Below are positions 2,058-60,292 of a stretch of DNA of 64,000 nt, in pieces. The notes under the pieces are model-generated. The model was not told the origin of the DNA, did not search any database, and worked only from the letters and a program-made list of their open reading frames with translations. Within the stretch, counting starts at the first letter, position 1. Every line of letters begins with the position of its first letter. A program made the position numbers and the translations under genes. The stretch is from Oceaniglobus trochenteri (GTDB taxonomy: Bacteria; Pseudomonadota; Alphaproteobacteria; Rhodobacterales; Rhodobacteraceae): the NCBI RefSeq assembly GCF_020529025.1, contig NZ_JACNMM010000002.1, forward strand, positions 496,001 through 560,000. The letters are read 5' to 3'.

Positions 2058-3038
2058 TCAGGCGCGATGAAGCCGCAGGGCCATGTCGATCATGCGGTTG
2101 GAGAAGCCCCATTCGTTGTCGTACCAGCCGAAGATGCGGGCCATGCCATCGGGTTGCACGATCAGTTCGGGGCCGGCCAGGACCAGGGATTCGGGGCGCG
2201 CGCGCAGATCGGAGGAGACAAGCGGGCGGTCCGTCCAGCCGATGACCGGGCCGGTGGCGGCGCGCAGGGCGTTGCGGATGGCGCCATGGTCGGGCGCGCC
2301 GGAGAGGCGCACCACCAGATCGACCGCCGAAACGCTGGCCACCGGCACCCGGACGGCCGCTCCCGTCACCCGGCCCGCCATATGCGGCAGCACCACGTCG
2401 ATCAGGTGGGTCGCGCTGGTGGTGGTGGGTACCATCGACAGGGCCCCTGCCCGGCTGCGGGCGAAATCGCCGCGCGGCGCGTCGATCATCGGCTGGCTGC
2501 CGGTGTAGCAGTGGATGGTGGTCATGTGGCCCTGCATCACGCCGAAGGCCCGGTCGAGCACCGCGAGAAGCGGCGCCAGCGCGTTCGTGGTGCAGGAGGC
2601 ATTCGAGACGATGGCGTGATCGCCGGCCGCCTCTTCGTTCGCCCCCAGAACCACGGTCACATCGGCACCCGCGGAGGGGCCGGAGATCAGCACGCGGGTC
2701 GCCCCGGCGGTCAGGCCGCGTTCGGCCACCGCGCGGCTGTCGGCCTTGCCGGTGCATTCCAGCAGGAGGTCGATGCCGCGCAGGTCCAGCGTCGAGATGT
2801 CGTCGGTGCGGTGCAGGGTGATCGTGCGGCCATCTACCGTCAGCCTGGTATCCTCCAGCGAGACCTTGCCCGGATAGGGGCCGAAGACGCTGTCGTATTC
2901 GAAGAGATGGGCGCAGAGATCGGGCGCGGCGATGTCGTTGATGCAGACCACCTCGATGCCGGTATCGCCGCGTGTCGTCGCCAGGGCGCGCAGGATGCTG
3001 CGCCCGATCCTGCCGAACCCGTTGATCGCAATGCGCAT
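2058..3038 (-). CDS. gap: Glyceraldehyde-3-phosphate dehydrogenase, type I
   Basis: A 326-residue GAPDH, slightly shorter than the usual 331-340. The N-terminal NAD-binding fold has the motif INGFGRIGR at residues 4-12 and an Asn-Asp after the second beta strand (VVCINDI), which fits NAD rather than NADP preference. The catalytic Cys sits in SNASCTTN (about residue 152) with the His in the ALSMVPTTTSATHLID region's partner strands, and the C-terminus ends with the typical WYDNEWGFSNRM. It catalyses the reversible oxidation of glyceraldehyde 3-phosphate to 1,3-bisphosphoglycerate in the cytoplasm. It follows the bhc operon on the same strand after an 89-base gap; no link to that pathway is evident. 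It is probably one of several gap paralogues. Confidence 0.9.
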   Translation of the reverse strand: MRIAINGFGRIGRSILRALATTRGDTGIEVVCINDIAAPDLCAHLFEYDSVFGPYPGKVSLEDTRLTVDGRTITLHRTDDISTLDLRGIDLLLECTGKADSRAVAERGLTAGATRVLISGPSAGADVTVVLGANEEAAGDHAIVSNASCTTNALAPLLAVLDRAFGVMQGHMTTIHCYTGSQPMIDAPRGDFARSRAGALSMVPTTTSATHLIDVVLPHMAGRVTGAAVRVPVASVSAVDLVVRLSGAPDHGAIRNALRAATGPVIGWTDRPLVSSDLRARPESLVLAGPELIVQPDGMARIFGWYDNEWGFSNRMIDMALRLHRA

Positions 3039-3127: not shown

Positions 3128-4093
3128 TCAGAAGGCCACCTCGATCGCCACGCCCCTGTCGCGGGCGATCTTCACCGCGCGGGCGGCGACGGCCAGGTCC
3201 TGAAGCCCCACGCCGGTGCCGTCGAACAGGGTGATTTCGTCGCCCGAGGTGCGGCCCGGGTGGGTGGCGTTGATGACCGCGCCGATGCGGGTGATGTCGC
3301 CCTCGCCGATCAGACCGGCGGCGATGGCGTGCTGTGCTTCGCCGATGCTGATGGATTGCGCCACCTCGTCGGTGAAGACCGAGGCGCGGGCCAGAAGTGC
3401 CGCCTCGACCTCCTGCTTGCCCTTGGTGTCGGTGCCCATGCAGGCGATGTGGGTGCCCGGTCGCACCTGGGCGTCCATCAGGATCGGATCGAAGGACGAG
3501 GTGATCGAGATGATGACATCGGCCTGCGCGCCCAGTTCGTCCAGGCTCACCTCCTGGAACGGCAGGCCCAGTTGGGCGGCGCAATCGGCCAGGCGCGACA
3601 ACATCTCGGGGTGATAGTTCCAGCCGACCACGCGGTCGAAGCTGCGCTGCGCCACGGCGGCGCGCATCTGGAACACCGATTGGTGCCCGGCCCCGATCAT
3701 GCCCAGAACGCGCGAATCTTCGCGCGACAGGTGCTTGATCGACACGGCGCTGGCAGCGGCGGTGCGCAGGGCGGTCAGAAGGTTGCCCCCCACCATGGCC
3801 GAAACGCGGCCGGTGTCGGCATCGAACAGGATCACGGTCGACTGGTGGTTGGTCAGCCCCTTGTCGGCATTGCCAGGCCAGTAACCGCCCGATTTCAGGC
3901 CCATGGCCAGGCTGTCACGGTCGAACCCCGACTTGAAACCGTAGAGCGCGTCGGCATGGCCGATCGCCTCGCGGATGACGGGAAAGTTGTAGGCCCGCCC
4001 GGTATCCATGGCCGCAAAGACCGCCTCGACGGCATCAAAGCTGTCTTCGGGCGTGATCAGGTCGGCGATTGCCGCTTCGGGTACTATCCACAT
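3128..4093 (-). CDS. bhcD: Iminosuccinate reductase (beta-hydroxyaspartate cycle)
   Basis: A 321-residue member of the ornithine cyclodeaminase/mu-crystallin superfamily with the Rossmann motif GMIGAGHQS around residue 133. In the beta-hydroxyaspartate cycle BhcD reduces iminosuccinate with NAD(P)H to L-aspartate, regenerating the amino donor for BhcA. The assignment rests on context: it is the last gene of a leftward bhcA-bhcB-bhcC-bhcD series matching the cluster described in Paracoccus denitrificans, in the same order and with similar lengths. On its own it would only be called ornithine cyclodeaminase-like. An 83-base gap with a GC hairpin and a repeat separates it from bhcC, so its expression may be tuned separately. 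Confidence 0.92.
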   Translation of the reverse strand: MWIVPEAAIADLITPEDSFDAVEAVFAAMDTGRAYNFPVIREAIGHADALYGFKSGFDRDSLAMGLKSGGYWPGNADKGLTNHQSTVILFDADTGRVSAMVGGNLLTALRTAAASAVSIKHLSREDSRVLGMIGAGHQSVFQMRAAVAQRSFDRVVGWNYHPEMLSRLADCAAQLGLPFQEVSLDELGAQADVIISITSSFDPILMDAQVRPGTHIACMGTDTKGKQEVEAALLARASVFTDEVAQSISIGEAQHAIAAGLIGEGDITRIGAVINATHPGRTSGDEITLFDGTGVGLQDLAVAARAVKIARDRGVAIEVAF

Positions 4094-4115
4094 GTTCTAT
4101 CTCCGGTCAGGATGA

Positions 4116-4163
4116 GGGGGCAGCGCACCGCCCCCTTCTCTTTCTTGCTGAAAATACTCACTC
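4116..4163. repeat. 3'-end repeat, GAGTATTTT/CAAGAAAGA family, with GC hairpin, between bhcC and bhcD
   Basis: Reading leftward from the bhcC stop: GAGTATTTTCAGCAAGAAAG, then a hairpin with arms GGGGGC and GCCCCC (4116-4121 with 4130-4135). The same arrangement occurs at 11230-11280. Lying inside an operon, it may cause partial termination or protect the upstream mRNA from 3' decay; no U-tract follows the hairpin on the minus strand. Confidence 0.7.
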
Positions 4164-4176
4164 TTTCGGAGCGACC

Positions 4177-5337
4177 TCAGTAGGCTTTGCCACGGGCCGA
4201 CACCGGCCAGAGCGTTTCAACCTTGCCGTTGCGCACACCGACGTACCAATCGTGGACGTTGCAGGTGGGGTCGCAGTGGCCGGGCACCAGGCGCAGTTTC
4301 TCGTTCACCTTCAGCACGCCCTCCGGGTCGGACACCACGCCGTGTTCGTCGCTGCACTTGACGTATTTCACGTCGTCGCGGCCATAGATGAAGGGCAGCC
4401 CGCTATCCACCGACTGGGCCTTGAGGCCGGCGTCGACGATGGCCTTGTCGGCCTTCGCGTGGCTCATCACGCTGGTCAGGATGAACAGCGCGTTTTCCCA
4501 TTCGCCCTGGTCGATGCGGTTGCCCTCCTTGTCGTGGATGCGGCCATAGTCGGCATCCATGAAGGCGTAAGAGCCGCACTGAAGCTCGTTATACACCCCC
4601 GAGGCCCCTTCGAAGTAATACGACCCGGTGCCGCCGCCGCCGACGATGGGGCAGTCCAGCCCCTCGGCCTTCAGCGTGTCGACCGCATCCTTCACCATGG
4701 CGATGGCGATATCGGTCTTGCCCTTGCGTTCCTCGTAGCTGTCCAGGTGCTGCATCGCGCCCTGATAGGCCTGGATGCCCGAGAAGGTCAGGTTCTCGGC
4801 CGCATCGATGGCCTTGGCGATTTCCACGACAGCGGGCGTGTTGGTGACCCCGCAGCGCCCGGCGCCACAGTCGATTTCCACGATGCATTCGATCTGGGTG
4901 CCATGGCTGACCGCCGCCGCCGAAAGATCGGCCACGTTGTTCACGTCATCGACACAGACGATGGTGCGCGCGCCCAGCTTGGGCAGGCGGGCCAGGCGGT
5001 CGATCTTTTCAGGCTGGGTCACCTGGTTGGACACCAGGATATCCTTGATGCCACCGCGGGCAAACACCTCGGCCTCGGACACCTTCTGGCAGCACACGCC
5101 ACAGGCGCCGCCCAGATCCTGCTGGATCTTCTGCACGTCCACAGACTTGTGCATCTTGCCGTGGCTGCGGTGCCGCACGCCATGGGATTTGGCGAATGCG
5201 CCCATCTTGGCGATGTTGCGCTCCATGGCGTCCAGATCCAGGATCAGGCAGGGCGTGGCGATGTCCGCCTCGTCCATGCCGATGGAGGCCGGGATGTCAT
5301 AGCCGACTTCGTAGTCGTCGAAATTCAGGTCTTTCAT
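4177..5337 (-). CDS. bhcC: beta-Hydroxyaspartate aldolase
   Basis: A 386-residue PLP enzyme of the DSD1/D-threonine aldolase family (alanine-racemase fold). The PLP lysine is most likely K61 in SHGKMHKS, matching the KTHK motif of D-threonine aldolases, and the C-terminal metal site is GHCDPTCNVHDWY. In the cycle BhcC condenses glyoxylate and glycine to (2R,3S)-beta-hydroxyaspartate. The ATG at 5337 was chosen because GAGGAG precedes it at ribosome-binding distance and overlaps the bhcB stop region; the frame stays open upstream into bhcB only by chance. Gap to bhcB is 11 bases. Confidence 0.94.
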   Translation of the reverse strand: MKDLNFDDYEVGYDIPASIGMDEADIATPCLILDLDAMERNIAKMGAFAKSHGVRHRSHGKMHKSVDVQKIQQDLGGACGVCCQKVSEAEVFARGGIKDILVSNQVTQPEKIDRLARLPKLGARTIVCVDDVNNVADLSAAAVSHGTQIECIVEIDCGAGRCGVTNTPAVVEIAKAIDAAENLTFSGIQAYQGAMQHLDSYEERKGKTDIAIAMVKDAVDTLKAEGLDCPIVGGGGTGSYYFEGASGVYNELQCGSYAFMDADYGRIHDKEGNRIDQGEWENALFILTSVMSHAKADKAIVDAGLKAQSVDSGLPFIYGRDDVKYVKCSDEHGVVSDPEGVLKVNEKLRLVPGHCDPTCNVHDWYVGVRNGKVETLWPVSARGKAY

Positions 5338-5348
5338 GGCTCTACTCC

Positions 5349-6302
5349 TCAGCCCTGCATCCAGGGCAGTTTCTTCAGATCGACATTGCCGCCGGTGATG
5401 ACGACGCCCACGCGCTTGCCCCGGAACACCTCGGGGTTCTTCAGGATCACCGCAAGCGGCACCGCGCAGGACGGCTCCATCACGATCTTCATGCGCTGCC
5501 AGGTCAGGATCATGGCATTCACGATCTCGTCCTCGCTGGCCGTCAGGATGTCGGTGACATGGTTCTTCACGAAATGCCACGTCAGCTCCTTCAGCGGCAC
5601 CTTCAGCCCGTCGGCCACCGTCACCGGCGCGTCGTCGGCGATGATGTGACCGGCGCGGAAACTGCGCGCGGCATCGTCGGCCTGATCCGGTTCGGCGGCA
5701 TAGATCGCGGTTTCGGGCGCGATGCTGGACAAGGTAAGGCAGGTGCCAGATACCATGCCACCACCTCCGATCGGCGCCACCACAGCGTCAAGACCATCGG
5801 TCTGCTCCATCAGTTCGCGTGAACATGTCCCCTGCCCCGCGATCACCCGCGGGTCGTTGTAGGGGTGGACGAAATTCGCGCCGGTTTCGGCCTGCACCCT
5901 GGCAAACACCTCTTCCCGGCTGCTGGTCGATGGCTCGCATTCGGTGATGATCCCGCCATATCCGCGCACCGCGTCCTTCTTGGCCTGCGGAGCGGTACGG
6001 GGCATGACCACATGGCACGGGATTCCCCGCCGCCCCGCCGCATAGGACAGGGACAGCGCGTGGTTGCCGCTGGAATGCGTGGCGACGCCGTTCCTCGCCT
6101 CCTCATCGCTCAGCCCGAAGACGGCGTTGGACGCGCCACGCACCTTGAAGGCGCCGGCCTTCTGGAAGTTCTCGCACTTGAAGAACAGATCGGCGCCCGT
6201 CAGCTCGTTCAGATAGCTTGAGGTCAGGACCGGCGTGCGGTGGATATGGGGGCGCACCCTTTCATGCGCCGCCTTCACATCGTCAAAGGTCGGAATATAC
6301 AT
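5349..6302 (-). CDS. bhcB: beta-Hydroxyaspartate dehydratase
   Basis: A 317-residue fold-type II PLP enzyme resembling threonine/serine dehydratases. The PLP lysine is K53 in KAGAFKVRGA, and the phosphate-binding loop is PIGGGGMVSG. In the beta-hydroxyaspartate cycle it dehydrates beta-hydroxyaspartate to iminosuccinate. Its ATG shares one base with the bhcA stop (TGATG), so the two are translated together. Without the cluster it would be annotated as a threonine or hydroxyaspartate dehydratase; the neighbouring bhcA, bhcC and bhcD make the specific assignment strong. Confidence 0.94.
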   Translation of the reverse strand: MYIPTFDDVKAAHERVRPHIHRTPVLTSSYLNELTGADLFFKCENFQKAGAFKVRGASNAVFGLSDEEARNGVATHSSGNHALSLSYAAGRRGIPCHVVMPRTAPQAKKDAVRGYGGIITECEPSTSSREEVFARVQAETGANFVHPYNDPRVIAGQGTCSRELMEQTDGLDAVVAPIGGGGMVSGTCLTLSSIAPETAIYAAEPDQADDAARSFRAGHIIADDAPVTVADGLKVPLKELTWHFVKNHVTDILTASEDEIVNAMILTWQRMKIVMEPSCAVPLAVILKNPEVFRGKRVGVVITGGNVDLKKLPWMQG

Positions 6303-7492
6303 CAGGCCGCCTTCTCGGTTTGCGCCGGAACACCGCGCAGGAACGATCTCTGCGCCGCCGCCACGCCACTGCCCAGTGTGATGTCCAGGCCAAGGTCGGC
6401 CATGACCATCTCGGCGGTGGCGATGCCGCTCAGCGCCATCACGTCGGTCAGGCTGCCCAGGTGGCCGATGCGGAACAGCTTGCCCGACACCTCGCCCAGG
6501 CCCACACCGAAGGCCACGTCATAGACCGAGGCGGCATGGTTGACGATGCGCCCCGAATCGAAGCCCTCGGGCGTCATGATCGCGCTGACGGTGTTGGATT
6601 CCACCTCGGGCGACACGGCGCACAGCTTCATGCCCCAGGCCCTGACCGCCGCGCGCACGCCGGTGGCGATGCGGGCATGGCGGGCGATGACGTTGTCGAT
6701 CCCTTCATCCAGCAGCATGTCGGAACTGGTCAGCAACCCGTTCATCAACCCGACGGCGGGGGTGTAGGGATAGGCGTTGTTGGCATAGCCCTTTTCCATG
6801 TCGCGGATATCGAAGAAGGTGCGCGGCAGCTTTGCGGTATCGACGCAGGCCCGCGCCTTTTCGGAAAACCCGACGATGGCCAGGCCCGCAGGCAGCATGA
6901 AGCCCTTCTGCGATCCGGTCACGGCCACGTCCACGCCCCAGTCGTCGAACCGGAAATCCATCGACCCGATCGAGCTCACCCCGTCCACCAGCAGCAGCGC
7001 GGGGTGATCGGCGGCGTCCATGGCCCGGCGGACGGCGCCGATGTCCGAAACGACGCCGGTGGCGGTTTCGTTGTGGGTGGCCAGAACGGCCTTGATCGCC
7101 TTGCCGCTGTCCTCGCTCAGGATCTCCTGGAAGGTGGCGGCCGGAATGCCCTCGCCCCAGGGGGTTTCTACGACCTGCACTTCAAGCCCGAAGCGCTGGC
7201 ACATTTCGATCCACTTGTGGCTGAACATCCCGTTGCGCGCGATCAGAACGTTGTCGCCGGGCGACAGGGTGTTGGTGATCGCGGTTTCCCATCCGCCGGT
7301 TCCGGTGGACGGAAAGATGAAGATCAGCGCGCTTTCCGATTTCAGAACCTTGCGGACATTGGCGCGCACCGGATGCAGGATGCGCCCGAAGATGGGCGAG
7401 CGGTGATCGACGGTGGGCATGTCGCAGGCCTTGCGCACGACTTCGGGAATATTCGTGGGGCCGGGAATGAAAACGGGGTTCTGAAAGCTCAT
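6302..7492 (-). CDS. bhcA: Aspartate-glyoxylate aminotransferase
   Basis: A 396-residue class V aminotransferase (serine/alanine-glyoxylate aminotransferase type). The PLP-binding Asp-Gly is in LLLVDGVSSIGS (about residues 166-177) and the Schiff-base lysine is K196 in TGSQKGF. BhcA transfers the amino group of aspartate to glyoxylate, giving glycine and oxaloacetate, the entry and exit step of the beta-hydroxyaspartate cycle. The ATG at 7492 has GGAGG eight bases upstream; the frame is open further upstream but that crosses the promoter region. First gene of the leftward operon, divergent from bhcR. Confidence 0.95.
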   Translation of the reverse strand: MSFQNPVFIPGPTNIPEVVRKACDMPTVDHRSPIFGRILHPVRANVRKVLKSESALIFIFPSTGTGGWETAITNTLSPGDNVLIARNGMFSHKWIEMCQRFGLEVQVVETPWGEGIPAATFQEILSEDSGKAIKAVLATHNETATGVVSDIGAVRRAMDAADHPALLLVDGVSSIGSMDFRFDDWGVDVAVTGSQKGFMLPAGLAIVGFSEKARACVDTAKLPRTFFDIRDMEKGYANNAYPYTPAVGLMNGLLTSSDMLLDEGIDNVIARHARIATGVRAAVRAWGMKLCAVSPEVESNTVSAIMTPEGFDSGRIVNHAASVYDVAFGVGLGEVSGKLFRIGHLGSLTDVMALSGIATAEMVMADLGLDITLGSGVAAAQRSFLRGVPAQTEKAA

Positions 7493-7655
7493 CGCGTCCT
7501 CCTGGGGTGTGAACAGCCTGTCTAGGCCATGCCCCGAGTCGCCACAATTTTTTTGAATATATTTTTCATTTTCCGAAGGCGCATAAATTCCTTGCCAAAT
7601 CATGGCCTTGTGTTTTTCATAAGGCGAACTCGTTTTTCAATTTCAGGGAAAAGCA
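7493..7655. promoter_or_regulatory. Divergent bhcA/bhcR control region with repeated TGAAAAA motifs
   Basis: This 163-base AT-rich segment separates the operon from its IclR regulator. The heptamer TTTTTCA occurs three times in the same orientation (7562-7568, 7613-7619, 7633-7639; TGAAAAA toward bhcA). The first copy forms half of an imperfect palindrome TGAATATATTTTTCA at 7554-7568. Toward bhcA, TTGTGG and TAGACA are spaced by 17 bases immediately after that palindrome and could be its -35/-10. I infer that BhcR binds here; in P. denitrificans BhcR binds the bhc promoter and responds to glyoxylate. Confidence 0.6.
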
Positions 7656-8480
7656 ATGCCACCAGATCAGCCGCGCCGTGGTCGCCCCCGCGCATTCCAC
7701 GATCAGACCGACCAGAACATCATCAAATCGCTCGACCGGGCGCTGGTGGTGTTGCAGGCCCTGGCGGATCAGCAATCCGCCACCCTGTCGCATCTGGCGC
7801 AAAGCCTGGATCAGTCGCCCGCCACGCTTTATCGCGTGCTGCTGACCCTGCAACAGCGCGGCATGGTCGATCTGGACGAGGCCGCCCAGACCTGGCACAT
7901 CGGCGCAGGCGCCTTCCTGATCGGGGCCTCTTTCCTGCGGCGCACCGCGCTGGTGGACGTGGCCCGCCCGGTGCTGCGCGCCCTGATGGAGGCAACGGGC
8001 GAAACCGCCAACCTGGGGGTGGAACGGGGCGACCAGGTGCTCTTCGTCAGCCAGGCCGAAACCCATGAAACGATCCGCGCATTCTTTCCCCCGGGCTCTC
8101 TATCACCGCTGCATGCCTCGGGCATCGGCAAGGCGCTGCTGGCCACCTGGCCCGAAGACCGGCTGAACCGCCACCTGGCACGCCGGGCGCTGGAACGCTT
8201 CACCCCCCATACCATCACCGACGCCGAGGCCCTGCGCGACGAGCTGCGCCAATGCGCGGCCCGGGGCTATGCCGTGGATGGAGAGGAAAAGAACCTCGGG
8301 ATGCGCTGCATCGCGGCCCCCGTCACCAATGCCATGGGCGATGTGGTGGCCGGCATCTCGGTCTCCGGCCCCACCAGCCGGGTCGATCTTGCGGCAACCG
8401 GGGCCCTGGCAACCGAAGTGGTGCGCGCGGCTCAGGCGCTTTCGGCCGCCATGGGGGCCCGCGCCGAACCGGCACGCTGA
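7656..8480 (+). CDS. bhcR: IclR-family regulator of the beta-hydroxyaspartate cycle
   Basis: A 274-residue IclR-type regulator with a winged helix-turn-helix at about residues 23-82 (LSHLAQSLDQSPATLYRVLLTLQQRG) and a C-terminal effector-binding domain (about 95-265). An Arg/Pro-rich stretch (RRGRPRAFHDQ) precedes the HTH. It is divergent from bhcABCD, as in the characterised cluster where BhcR controls the operon in response to glyoxylate. The start has GGGAAAAG upstream and fits IclR length. It ends convergently with ade across a 63-base gap containing a terminator-like hairpin. Confidence 0.92.
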   Translation: MPPDQPRRGRPRAFHDQTDQNIIKSLDRALVVLQALADQQSATLSHLAQSLDQSPATLYRVLLTLQQRGMVDLDEAAQTWHIGAGAFLIGASFLRRTALVDVARPVLRALMEATGETANLGVERGDQVLFVSQAETHETIRAFFPPGSLSPLHASGIGKALLATWPEDRLNRHLARRALERFTPHTITDAEALRDELRQCAARGYAVDGEEKNLGMRCIAAPVTNAMGDVVAGISVSGPTSRVDLAATGALATEVVRAAQALSAAMGARAEPAR

Positions 8481-8543: not shown

Positions 8544-10244
8544 TCAGCCGATGATCTCGAATTTCGTCACATCCACCATGCCCCGGTCGGTGATCTTCAG
8601 CATCGGAATGACCGGCAGCGCCAGAAAGGCCAGCTGCAGGAAGGGTTCATCCAGCACCACCCCCAGCGACACAGCCGCTTCCCGCAGTTCCTCCAGCCTT
8701 TCGCGCACATGCTCGAAGCTCTCAAGGCTCATCAGCCCGGCCATGGGCAGGGCCAGTTCCGCCAGCACCCGGCCCTCTCGCACCACGACGAAGCCGCCTT
8801 CGATCTCGCCCAGCCGTGTGGCCGCCAGCGCCATGTCGTCGTAATCCATACCAACGACCGCGATGTTGTGATGGTCGTGACAGACGGTCGATCCGATGGC
8901 GCCCGCCTGCATCCCGAAGCCGCGCACGAAACCGTTGGCCACGTTGCCGTTCTTGCCATGGCGTTCGATCACCGTGATGCGGGCCAGATCGCGCGCCGGG
9001 TCGGGCCGCTTGTCGCCATCCTGCACCGGAATGTCCCCGTGCAGGTGCTCGGTTATGATCTTGCCCGGCAGAATGCCGATCACGTCGGTTTCGGCCTTGT
9101 TCGACGTGGTCCGGAACGAGGCCGCCCCCACCACCGGCGCCTTGACCGATCCGCGCCCGATGGGCGGCACGATGCGCCGTGCGGCAAAGGCCGCCTCTTC
9201 CATCACCACACCGCCACAGACCACCAGCCGCGCGTCACAATCGGCCAGCGCACCCAGCGCGACGATATCGGCCCGCTGGCCCGGCGCGATCTGGCCCCGG
9301 TCTTTCAGGCCAAAAGCCTCGGCCGCCGAAAGCGATGCCGCGCGATAGGCCGCCAGGGGCGACACACCCCGCGCTATGGCGGTGCGGATCATGTAATCCA
9401 GGTGGCCATGTTCCCCGATGTCCAGCGGGTTGCGGTCGTCGGTGCAGAAGCAGCAGTAGGCGCTCGTGGCATCGTTCAGGATCGGCAGCAGCGCATCCAG
9501 ATCCTTGCTGACCGAGCCTTCGCGGATCAGCACCCGCATTCCCTTGCGCAGCTTCTCCAGCGCCTCTTCGGCGGTCGTCGCCTCGTGCTCGGTGCGGATG
9601 CCGGCCGCCACATAGGCGTTCAGGTCGCGCCCCGACAACAGCGGCGCGTGGCCGTCGATATGGCGCCCCCTGAAGGCTTCAAGCTTCTCCATGCAACCCG
9701 GCTCGCGGTTCACCACGCCGGGATAGTTCATGAACTCGGCCAGGCCCAGGGCGCTGGGGTGCTCCATCAGCGGCACCAGGTCGGCGGCCGAAATCGCCGC
9801 CCCCGCCGTCTCCATGTCGGTCGAGGGCACGCAGGACGACAGCTGAACCTTGATGTCCATGATGGTTTCCAGCGCACAGTCCTGGAAATACCTAATGCCC
9901 TCCACCCCCAGGACATTGGCAATCTCGTGCGGGTCGCAAATGGCCGTGGTCACACCGCGCGGCCCCACGCAGCGGTCGAACTCGAAAGGCGTGACAAGGC
10001 TGCTTTCGATATGCAGGTGGGTGTCGATGAACCCCGGCACCAGGACAAACCCGCTCACGTCCCGCACCTCGGCGCCCTCGTAGGTATCGCCGATCCCGAC
10101 GATGCGGTCGGCGGTGATGGCCACATCGCCGGGAATGAAGGCCCCGGTCACCACGTCGAAAACCGTTCCACCACGCAGAACAAGATCACAGGGAACTAAG
10201 CCACGGGCAGTGTCGATCAGGCGCGCTAGGGATGAGTCGGGCAA
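8544..10244 (-). CDS. ade: Adenine deaminase
   Basis: A 566-residue amidohydrolase of the Ade family converting adenine to hypoxanthine. Metal-binding motifs are visible: [23 protein letters not shown] and CFCTDDRNP. The C-terminal subdomain contains the typical VCHDHHNI segment. The start is most likely the TTG at 10244, because AGGAG lies six bases upstream; an in-frame GTG at 10307 has no ribosome-binding site. Length agrees with bacterial Ade (about 565-600). It stands alone on the minus strand; its upstream region also contains the candidate rightward small RNA. Confidence 0.92.
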
Positions 10245-11229: not shown

Positions 11230-11280
11230 GGGCCGCCCGACATCCCGGGCGGCCCTTCTCTTTCTTGCCGAAAATACTCA
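11230..11280. repeat. GC hairpin plus GAGTATTTT/CAAGAAAGA repeat
   Basis: A ten-pair stem GGGCCGCCCG/CGGGCGGCCC (11230-11239 with 11246-11255) is joined to TTCTCTTTCTTGCCGAAAAT ACTCA. Same layout as 4116-4163. It lies downstream of the leftward 5'-nucleotidase gene and just upstream of the SRAP gene. Confidence 0.7.
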
Positions 11281-49776: not shown

Positions 49777-50703
49777 ATGTCGAAGCCTGAAACCCTCTCC
49801 ACCTTTGAGTTCTTCCGCAAGTTCCCGGATGAAGATGCCGCACGCAAGTTCTTTGAGGCTAAGCGTTGGGGCGACGAGCCGGTTTGCGGTCACTGTGGTT
49901 CGGTCAGCGTGGCCGAGTGCAAAGACCACAAGCCCATGCCGTACCGCTGCAAGGATTGCCGGAAGCATTTCAGCGTCCGCACTGGCACTGTTCTGGCCGA
50001 GAGCCGCCTTCCCCTGCAAAAATGGCTCCTTGCTATTTTCATGCTGACCAGCGCCCGCAAAGGCATTCCCAGCACTCAGATGGCGCGGGAGCTTGGCGTC
50101 ACTCAGAAAACCGCATGGTTCCTTGCACAGCGCATCCGCGAAACTTGGCTCAAGGATCGTGACGACCACATGGACGGTCAGATGCAGGTTGACGAAACCT
50201 ATGTCGGTGGCCGCGAGAAGAACAAGCACGCCGACAAGAAGCTCCGCGCTGGCCGTGGCGCGGTTGGCAAGACTGTGGTCGTCGGCGTTCGTGACGAGCA
50301 TGGCGAAGTTCGCGCGGTCGTGGTCGAGAACACTAAGGCAACGACGCTTGAACGCTTCGTCCGCGAGCATTGCAAGGCGGGCGCTACCATCGTGACCGAC
50401 ACCCACGGCGGCTACATCAACCTCAAGGCCCGTGGCTACAATCACATCACCATCAACCACACCGCTGGCGAGTACGTCCGCGACATGGCGCATACCAACG
50501 GCATCGAAAGCTTCTGGTCCCTGCTCAAGCGCGGCTACATCGGCATCTATCACTACATGAGCGCCAAGCACCTGCACCGCTACGTGAAGGAGTTCTCCTT
50601 CCGCCACAACACGGCACAGATCGGCACCATGGGCTTCATCGGAATGACTATCGACCGCATGGCAGACAAGCGGCTGACTTACAAAGGGCTGATCAATGGC
50701 TGA
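49777..50703 (+). CDS. IS1595-family transposase (ISXO2-like)
   Basis: A 308-residue transposase. An N-terminal zinc ribbon (CGHCGS ... YRCKDCRKHFS, about residues 38-68), a helix-turn-helix (STQMARELGVTQKTAWFLAQRIRE) and the ISXO2-like catalytic domain with Asp in QVDETYVGG, Asp in VTDTHGGY and the HTNGIESFWSLLKRGYIGIYH block are intact. It lies on the plus strand within complete inverted repeats, with its 3' end overlapping the passenger gene. Confidence 0.96.
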   Translation: MSKPETLSTFEFFRKFPDEDAARKFFEAKRWGDEPVCGHCGSVSVAECKDHKPMPYRCKDCRKHFSVRTGTVLAESRLPLQKWLLAIFMLTSARKGIPSTQMARELGVTQKTAWFLAQRIRETWLKDRDDHMDGQMQVDETYVGGREKNKHADKKLRAGRGAVGKTVVVGVRDEHGEVRAVVVENTKATTLERFVREHCKAGATIVTDTHGGYINLKARGYNHITINHTAGEYVRDMAHTNGIESFWSLLKRGYIGIYHYMSAKHLHRYVKEFSFRHNTAQIGTMGFIGMTIDRMADKRLTYKGLING

Positions 50704-60236: not shown

Positions 60237-60292
60237 GAGTATTTTCAGCAAGAAAGAAAGGCAGCGCCCGTTTCTTTCTTGCCCAAATACTC
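60237..60292. repeat. Symmetric repeat hairpin between ppk1 and the convergent PNPOx gene
   Basis: GAGTATTT ... AAATACTC and GCAAGAAAGAAA (60248-60259) ... TTTCTTTCTTGC (60270-60281) are nested perfect arms. Each half is a GAGTATTT/CAAGAAAGAA repeat pointing away from its gene, so one palindrome serves the 3' ends of both. Confidence 0.85.

Follow-up and report, generated by a model that had tools for sequence, protein, structure and literature searches.

Here we describe a predicted beta-hydroxyaspartate cycle (BHAC) gene cluster, and a divergent gene of the glyceraldehyde-3-phosphate dehydrogenase (GAPDH) family that follows it (here termed GAPL), in Oceaniglobus trochenteri (Rhodobacteraceae). 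The window, i.e., the whole stretch of DNA analyzed, comprises 64,000 nt (positions 496,001 to 560,000 of contig NZ_JACNMM010000002.1) of a 4.59-Mb genome in 33 contigs (GCF_020529025.1). The genes on which the argument rests are listed below by window position, with bit scores given against the cut-offs of the respective models.

7656-8480, + strand: bhcR, IclR-type regulator BhcR, 274 aa (NCBIfam NF045644, 398.2 bits vs. 350)
6302-7492, - strand: bhcA, aspartate-glyoxylate aminotransferase, 396 aa (NF045640, 733.1 bits vs. 650)
5349-6302, - strand: bhcB, beta-hydroxyaspartate dehydratase, 317 aa (NF045641, 607.2 bits vs. 550; own-genome comparison)
4177-5337, - strand: bhcC, 3-hydroxy-D-aspartate aldolase, 386 aa (NF045642, 754.7 bits vs. 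690; PDB 6qkb, 704 bits)
3128-4093, - strand: bhcD, iminosuccinate reductase, 321 aa (NF045643, 592 bits vs. 500; PDB 6rqa, 462 bits)
2058-3038, - strand: GAPL, divergent GAPDH-like gene (both GAPDH Pfam domains; GAPDH-I model 328.2 bits vs. 367.2, below cut-off; a subfamily of its own)

All five Bhc proteins exceed their NCBIfam equivalog cut-offs, and the complete set of bhcR plus bhcABCD lies at 3128-8480, where the original prediction had placed it; the order, lengths and pyridoxal phosphate (PLP) lysines it gave (K196 in BhcA, K53 in BhcB and K61 in BhcC) are likewise correct. The genes bhcABCD run on the - strand, with bhcA and bhcB overlapping by 1 base and gaps of 11 bp between bhcB and bhcC and 83 bp between bhcC and bhcD; bhcR diverges from bhcA across a 163-bp spacer, and the cluster of Paracoccus denitrificans (L146) is arranged alike. 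When aligned to the P. denitrificans Bhc proteins, each of the five paired with its namesake. The closest PDB structure for BhcC is a D-3-hydroxyaspartate aldolase and that for BhcD an iminosuccinate reductase; BhcB and BhcA match more distant enzymes only (6lut, 323 bits, and 6pk1, 383 bits). Since the Pfam domains of the four enzymes are generic, and names of the generic kind were given in an old record, one could take the four for ordinary serine/threonine, D-threonine and ornithine-type enzymes of some other pathway, co-located by chance. However, none of the generic NCBIfam models shown passed its own cut-off with the Bhc proteins (for BhcB, 25 of 37 models were shown), whereas the Bhc models did, and both the gene order and the divergent regulator match P. 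denitrificans, leaving this explanation highly improbable. A better match to ordinary enzymes, which the original prediction had held to be decisive against it, was not seen for BhcB, BhcC or BhcD, the three covered by genome-wide runs: the runner-up in the O. trochenteri genome scored 195 bits against 571 for BhcB (with P. denitrificans BhcB as the query), 176 against 754 for BhcC, and 115 against 591 for BhcD. Its further claim that standard pipelines misname these genes is not supported, as each of the five has its own equivalog model in NCBIfam, Bhc names stand in many current records, and misleading names were found in one older record. Judged from its sequence, the locus is very probably a BHAC operon. 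The core cluster is of no unusual interest, because the pathway is known, common in Rhodobacteraceae and already named by current annotation. GAPL, an adenine deaminase gene and a conserved operator are features absent from the original prediction.

With the individual steps taken in their established order, BhcA would transaminate glyoxylate with aspartate as the amino donor, yielding glycine and oxaloacetate, and BhcC would condense the glycine with a second glyoxylate. BhcB would then dehydrate the product to iminosuccinate, which BhcD would reduce to aspartate. The net conversion would be of two glyoxylate to one oxaloacetate with zero loss of CO2. Both the net reaction and the role of BhcR as activator are described for P. 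denitrificans in PMC11323563, and we infer by analogy that O. trochenteri runs the BHAC in the same way. The same source presents the BHAC as a carbon-conserving means of using glycolate, a major algal product, and notes its employment in metabolic engineering (PMC11323563). In O. trochenteri, glyoxylate would be supplied from glycolate through glcDEF-like genes that lie elsewhere on the contig of the window, with purines as a possible second source. The GlcF-like gene scores above its cut-off (446.3 bits vs. 333). A search for glyoxylate carboligase (Gcl), the only enzyme of the glycerate pathway sought, gave seven matches in the genome, none of them above the cut-off (best 338.8 bits vs. 711.2). 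Because no Gcl passes and glcDEF-like genes are present, growth on glycolate by the BHAC route is a fair prediction.

Regulation of the cluster was approached through the spacer between bhcR and bhcA, in which two conserved elements were recognized.

7545-7568, - strand: putative BhcR operator, TGAAAAATATATTCAAAAAAATTG, upstream of bhcA (core conserved across the aligned bhcR-bhcA spacers)
7606-7645, - strand: second conserved block, TGAAAAACGAGTTC ... TATGAAAAACACAAGG, nearer bhcR (TGAAAAA invariant in 15 spacers)

The alignment comprised the spacer of the window and 14 others, and 14 of the 15 are distinct; the identical pair is that of Kandeliimicrobium roseum (L008) and of G152, another genome of the same genus group, which therefore extends beyond a single named genus. 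The pattern TGAAAAANNNNTTCAAAAA has a single exact match in the genome, at the site 7545-7568. A further match with one mismatch (C20:1145) was discarded as a candidate site, as it falls inside a long reading frame that by eye resembles a membrane transport protein. It has been proposed that BhcR has a dual role and that its site is a palindrome preceding the bhcA -35 region (PMC11323563), and the conserved spacer block fits that proposal. All nine of the BhcR ligand residues that PMC11323563 lists are present in BhcR of the window. BhcR would sense glyoxylate and activate bhcA, probably via the conserved site.

When the occurrence of the cluster was surveyed across 149 Rhodobacteraceae genomes, one per genus, BhcC was found above cut-off in 60, and the cluster in the window is an ordinary new instance of a known system. 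A scan of named genomes took 80 loci from the 581 relatives listed; bhcA, bhcB, bhcC and bhcD occur together in 68 of these, 57 of which also have bhcR. Among the remaining 12 loci, eight stop at a contig edge and L078 has just 1.2 kb upstream, whereas L003, L019 and L061 have ample flanks and truly lack a bhc gene at that place. L019 and L061, both labeled Neomegalonema, carry bhcBCD, and neither bhcA nor bhcR was found despite ~7 kb upstream. A different departure is seen in Limimaricola cinnabarinus (L068:4670-5413), where a bhcR-like gene and bhcA lie on one strand rather than divergently. The clusters are also of two kinds (L004, L010, L012 and others), one with BhcA ~75% and BhcR ~60% identical to those of the window and the other with BhcA ~60% and BhcR 42-49%, BhcC exceeding 80% in both.

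Several observations speak against the BHAC reading of the locus. The GlcE-like (275.2 bits vs. 284) and GlcD-like (527.9 vs. 897 and 438.3 vs. 567.9) proteins fall below their cut-offs, so that these two assignments are probable but not certain. The set of O. ichthyenteri is divided between two contigs: one (L003:3881-10268) carries ade, bhcABC and GAPL without bhcD and bhcR, and a second contig of 54 kb (L139:9856-11805) carries a divergent bhcR-bhcD pair whose proteins are 60 and 72% identical, respectively, to those of the window. In L003 a copy of the operator pattern with a single mismatch precedes bhcA. At up to two mismatches, no match was found in the bhcR-bhcD spacer of L139 or in the P. 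denitrificans stretch; in the latter a diverged version, GAAATATTTTTCAGAAAAATTGC, was seen by eye at the corresponding place. The O. ichthyenteri bhcR-bhcD pair adjoins genes that by eye resemble plasmid partition genes.

GAPL follows bhcD on the same strand at a distance of 89 bp and may be the fifth gene of the bhc operon, with co-transcription predicted. The NAD-binding GAPDH domain has only two matches in the genome, GAPL and the canonical Gap. A profile (A1) built from 12 bhc-linked copies and run on the 149 family genomes recovered the GAPL subfamily in 64, with scores of 488-586 bits, the remaining matches listed being at or below 403. Among 190 genomes sampled from the class, with the share of the family unstated, there were three strong matches, all from Rhodobacteraceae and including the O. 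trochenteri genome itself. Copies with at least 50% identity numbered 29 on plasmids among the 265 records matched, and according to the record listing these include Rhizobium, Agrobacterium and Rhizorhabdus. A tree was constructed from 70 GAPL proteins and 14 of 36 canonical proteins, and the canonical GAPDHs form one side of a fully supported branch. The 24 bhc-adjacent GAPL copies require 16 label changes on this tree, at least 13 of them on starred branches, compared with a mean of 21.1 when the labels were shuffled, and 1 of 500 shuffles was as low as 16; the count may be too high, since short flanks in some rows mean that labels may err. The bhc-adjacent copies are therefore scattered over the tree, yet less so than at random, and a single origin of bhc-linked GAPL is not supported.

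Residues Ser148, Cys149, Thr150, His176, Thr179 and Arg230 are kept in all 70 GAPL proteins. Conserved differences from the 36 canonical proteins were found at 20 positions, including Asp to Ser at 181 (68/70), Gly to Ser at 208 (70/70) and Asn to Arg at 279 (70/70). Positions 181 and 208 are presumably phosphate sites of GAPDH. The Asp of the coenzyme site is retained in 69/70, which we take to speak against an NADP type. The predicted structure has a mean pLDDT of 87 (below 50 for residues 180-201) and nearly all of the 50 structural matches listed for it are GAPDHs; this confirms the fold only and does not tell the substrate. One explanation, to which we give close to an even chance, is that GAPL is a plain GAPDH paralogue performing triose-phosphate chemistry and serving gluconeogenic flux from the oxaloacetate made by the BHAC. 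The GAPDH domains and fold, and the retention of Cys149, His176, Thr179 and Arg230 throughout, agree with it. The conserved changes at 181 and 208 argue against it, as does the presence of a canonical gap in the same genome. A gluconeogenic GapB of the NADP type, in particular, is weakened by the retained Asp if we are right about the meaning of that residue.

The genomic surroundings of GAPL bear on the same question. Of the 64 genomes that have GAPL, 22 carry it no more than 5 kb from bhcC and 27 no more than 10 kb from uraH, and in 36 it is near one or the other; random placement would give ~0.3 of 64 for uraH by an arithmetic estimate. The gene uraH belongs to purine breakdown, a source of glyoxylate. 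A closer count of neighbors required flanks of 4.5 kb or more on each side, which 59 of 70 distinct GAPL proteins had (11 were dropped), and 36 canonical gap proteins served as the control, with 27 having such flanks (9 dropped). Neighbors were named by NCBIfam (ureidoglycine aminohydrolase, ureidoglycolate lyase and 8-oxoguanine deaminase families), with the labels uraH, puuE, puuD and gcvP taken from annotated members and gcvH, gcvT and xdhA/B being labels that we presume; adenine deaminase and nucleobase transporter were counted as purine-related. The genes sought, i.e., bhc, purine-related or glycine-cleavage genes, were near GAPL in 41/59 loci and near canonical gap in 0/27, one of which has a BhcR-like regulator. 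The 64-genome figures are less biased than 41/59, because some of the 59 loci were themselves located by way of BhcC. Among the 70 named loci with at least 2 kb beyond bhcD, GAPL follows bhcD in eight, at a gap of 10-117 bp. Other arrangements include that of Sulfitobacter faviae, with bhcABCD, a transporter gene and GAPL within a purine-breakdown set; those of Aliiroseovarius crassostreae, Salipiger and Alloyangia, with GAPL and uraH and no bhc genes in view; and that of Aliiroseovarius sp. M344, with neither. In genome G034 (L229:6929-7900 and upstream), a weak BhcC-like protein (499.9 bits) is encoded directly before GAPL, and no other bhc gene was recognized near it. The proximity of GAPL to purine genes even where no bhc gene is near counts further against a plain GAPDH that serves the BHAC.

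Overall, we read GAPL as a probable GAPDH-family enzyme that uses NAD and goes along with glyoxylate metabolism, and we consider a shifted aldehyde substrate nearly as likely as plain triose-phosphate chemistry. Somewhat less probably, GAPL may have moved to an aldehyde tied to glyoxylate or ureide breakdown, and so act as a relief valve or as a hitherto unrecognized step in the BHAC and in purine catabolism of Rhodobacteraceae. The signs are the clean split of GAPL from GAPDH, the changes at 181 and 208, the arginine gained at 279, and the recurrent association with bhc and purine clusters. Other results weigh against so close an association. None of the neighbors sought was near GAPL in 18 of the 59 loci, and in P. 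denitrificans no GAPL lies beside bhcD. Moreover, GAPL occurs in 42/78 genomes with BhcC (a set that includes weaker matches of at least 499 bits) vs. 22/71 without (p 0.005), and once linked cases are removed the figures are 20/56 and 22/71 (p 0.70); the co-occurrence at genome level therefore rests on linkage, which argues against a tight tie to the BHAC. The presence of uraH was also tried as a predictor of GAPL and is uninformative, since 142 of the 149 genomes have uraH above cut-off.

That loss of co-occurrence beyond linkage, together with the plasmid copies and the scatter on the tree, would be expected if GAPL were a mobile gene, carried on plasmids, that had hitch-hiked to places near bhc or purine genes without sharing a task with them. 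Yet GAPL follows bhcD closely on the same strand in all eight of the cases above, and it is near bhcC or uraH in more than half of its genomes vs. none of the 27 canonical gap loci; hence we regard hitch-hiking as unlikely. Another conceivable role is that of an erythrose-4-phosphate dehydrogenase supplying PLP to the Bhc enzymes, three of the four being PLP-dependent by their lysines. This was set aside as very unlikely, as GAPL scores far below the cut-offs of TIGR01532 (259.9 bits vs. 530.55) and NF010058 (264.6 vs. 539) and also adjoins purine genes, which to our knowledge are not PLP-dependent. Among the literature matches listed (titles and abstract openings, with subscription journals mostly outside), none ties a GAPDH to BHAC or purine clusters. 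One further BHAC cluster adds little, and it is the recurring GAPDH-like partner and the tie to purines that merit following. The partner suggests a BHAC-associated enzyme not yet accounted for and, together with the 23 of 60 genomes in which no more than 10 kb separates uraH from bhcC, suggests purines as a natural source of glyoxylate for the BHAC.

On the other side of bhcR lies a gene that touches on this source.

8544-10244, - strand: ade, adenine deaminase, start uncertain (TIGR01178, 570.5 bits vs. 472.5 with the frame read from 10307; Pfam)

Its end is 63 bp from that of bhcR, and glyoxylate is a possible end product of adenine breakdown. An ade gene also adjoins bhc genes in L003 and L140, and in L143, in which it is truncated at the contig end. 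Elsewhere, an intergenic motif, TTTCTTGCTGAAAATACTC, occurs in three copies in the window (4141-4159, 11261-11279 and 60237-60255; 0.00 expected), and the first sits behind a GC-rich hairpin in the bhcC-bhcD spacer. The idea of a structured bhcC-bhcD spacer was dropped, since the fold of the + strand barely beats shuffled sequences (z -1.32). At 49777-50703, the start of a reading frame resembles an IS1595-type transposase by eye.

The canonical relative of GAPL in the same genome, a type I GAPDH encoded beside transketolase, shares with it both Pfam domains, the fold class and the catalytic Cys and His; the two are 45% identical, and Gap passes the GAPDH-I model (437.6 bits vs. 367.2) where GAPL fails. 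The order bhcABCD-GAPL on one strand, as in the window, recurs in Limimaricola variabilis, Tateyamaria omphalii and Rhizorhabdus wittichii DC-6. The clusters of these three are plasmid-borne, the stretches shown are without ade, and that of Rhizorhabdus has an extra malic enzyme gene. Compared with the model cluster on a plasmid stretch of P. denitrificans (L146), the window has in common the five proteins (identities of 73, 79, 80, 68 and 53% for BhcA, BhcB, BhcC, BhcD and BhcR, respectively), their order, the divergent regulator and the full complement of BhcR ligand residues. The window differs in carrying GAPL downstream of bhcD and ade on the far side of bhcR. The region behind bhcD in P. 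denitrificans (L146:8103-13146) holds instead a gene for a 493-aa protein and then a member of the 8-oxoguanine deaminase cluster together with uraH and puuD, so that purine-breakdown genes adjoin the model BHAC cluster as well.

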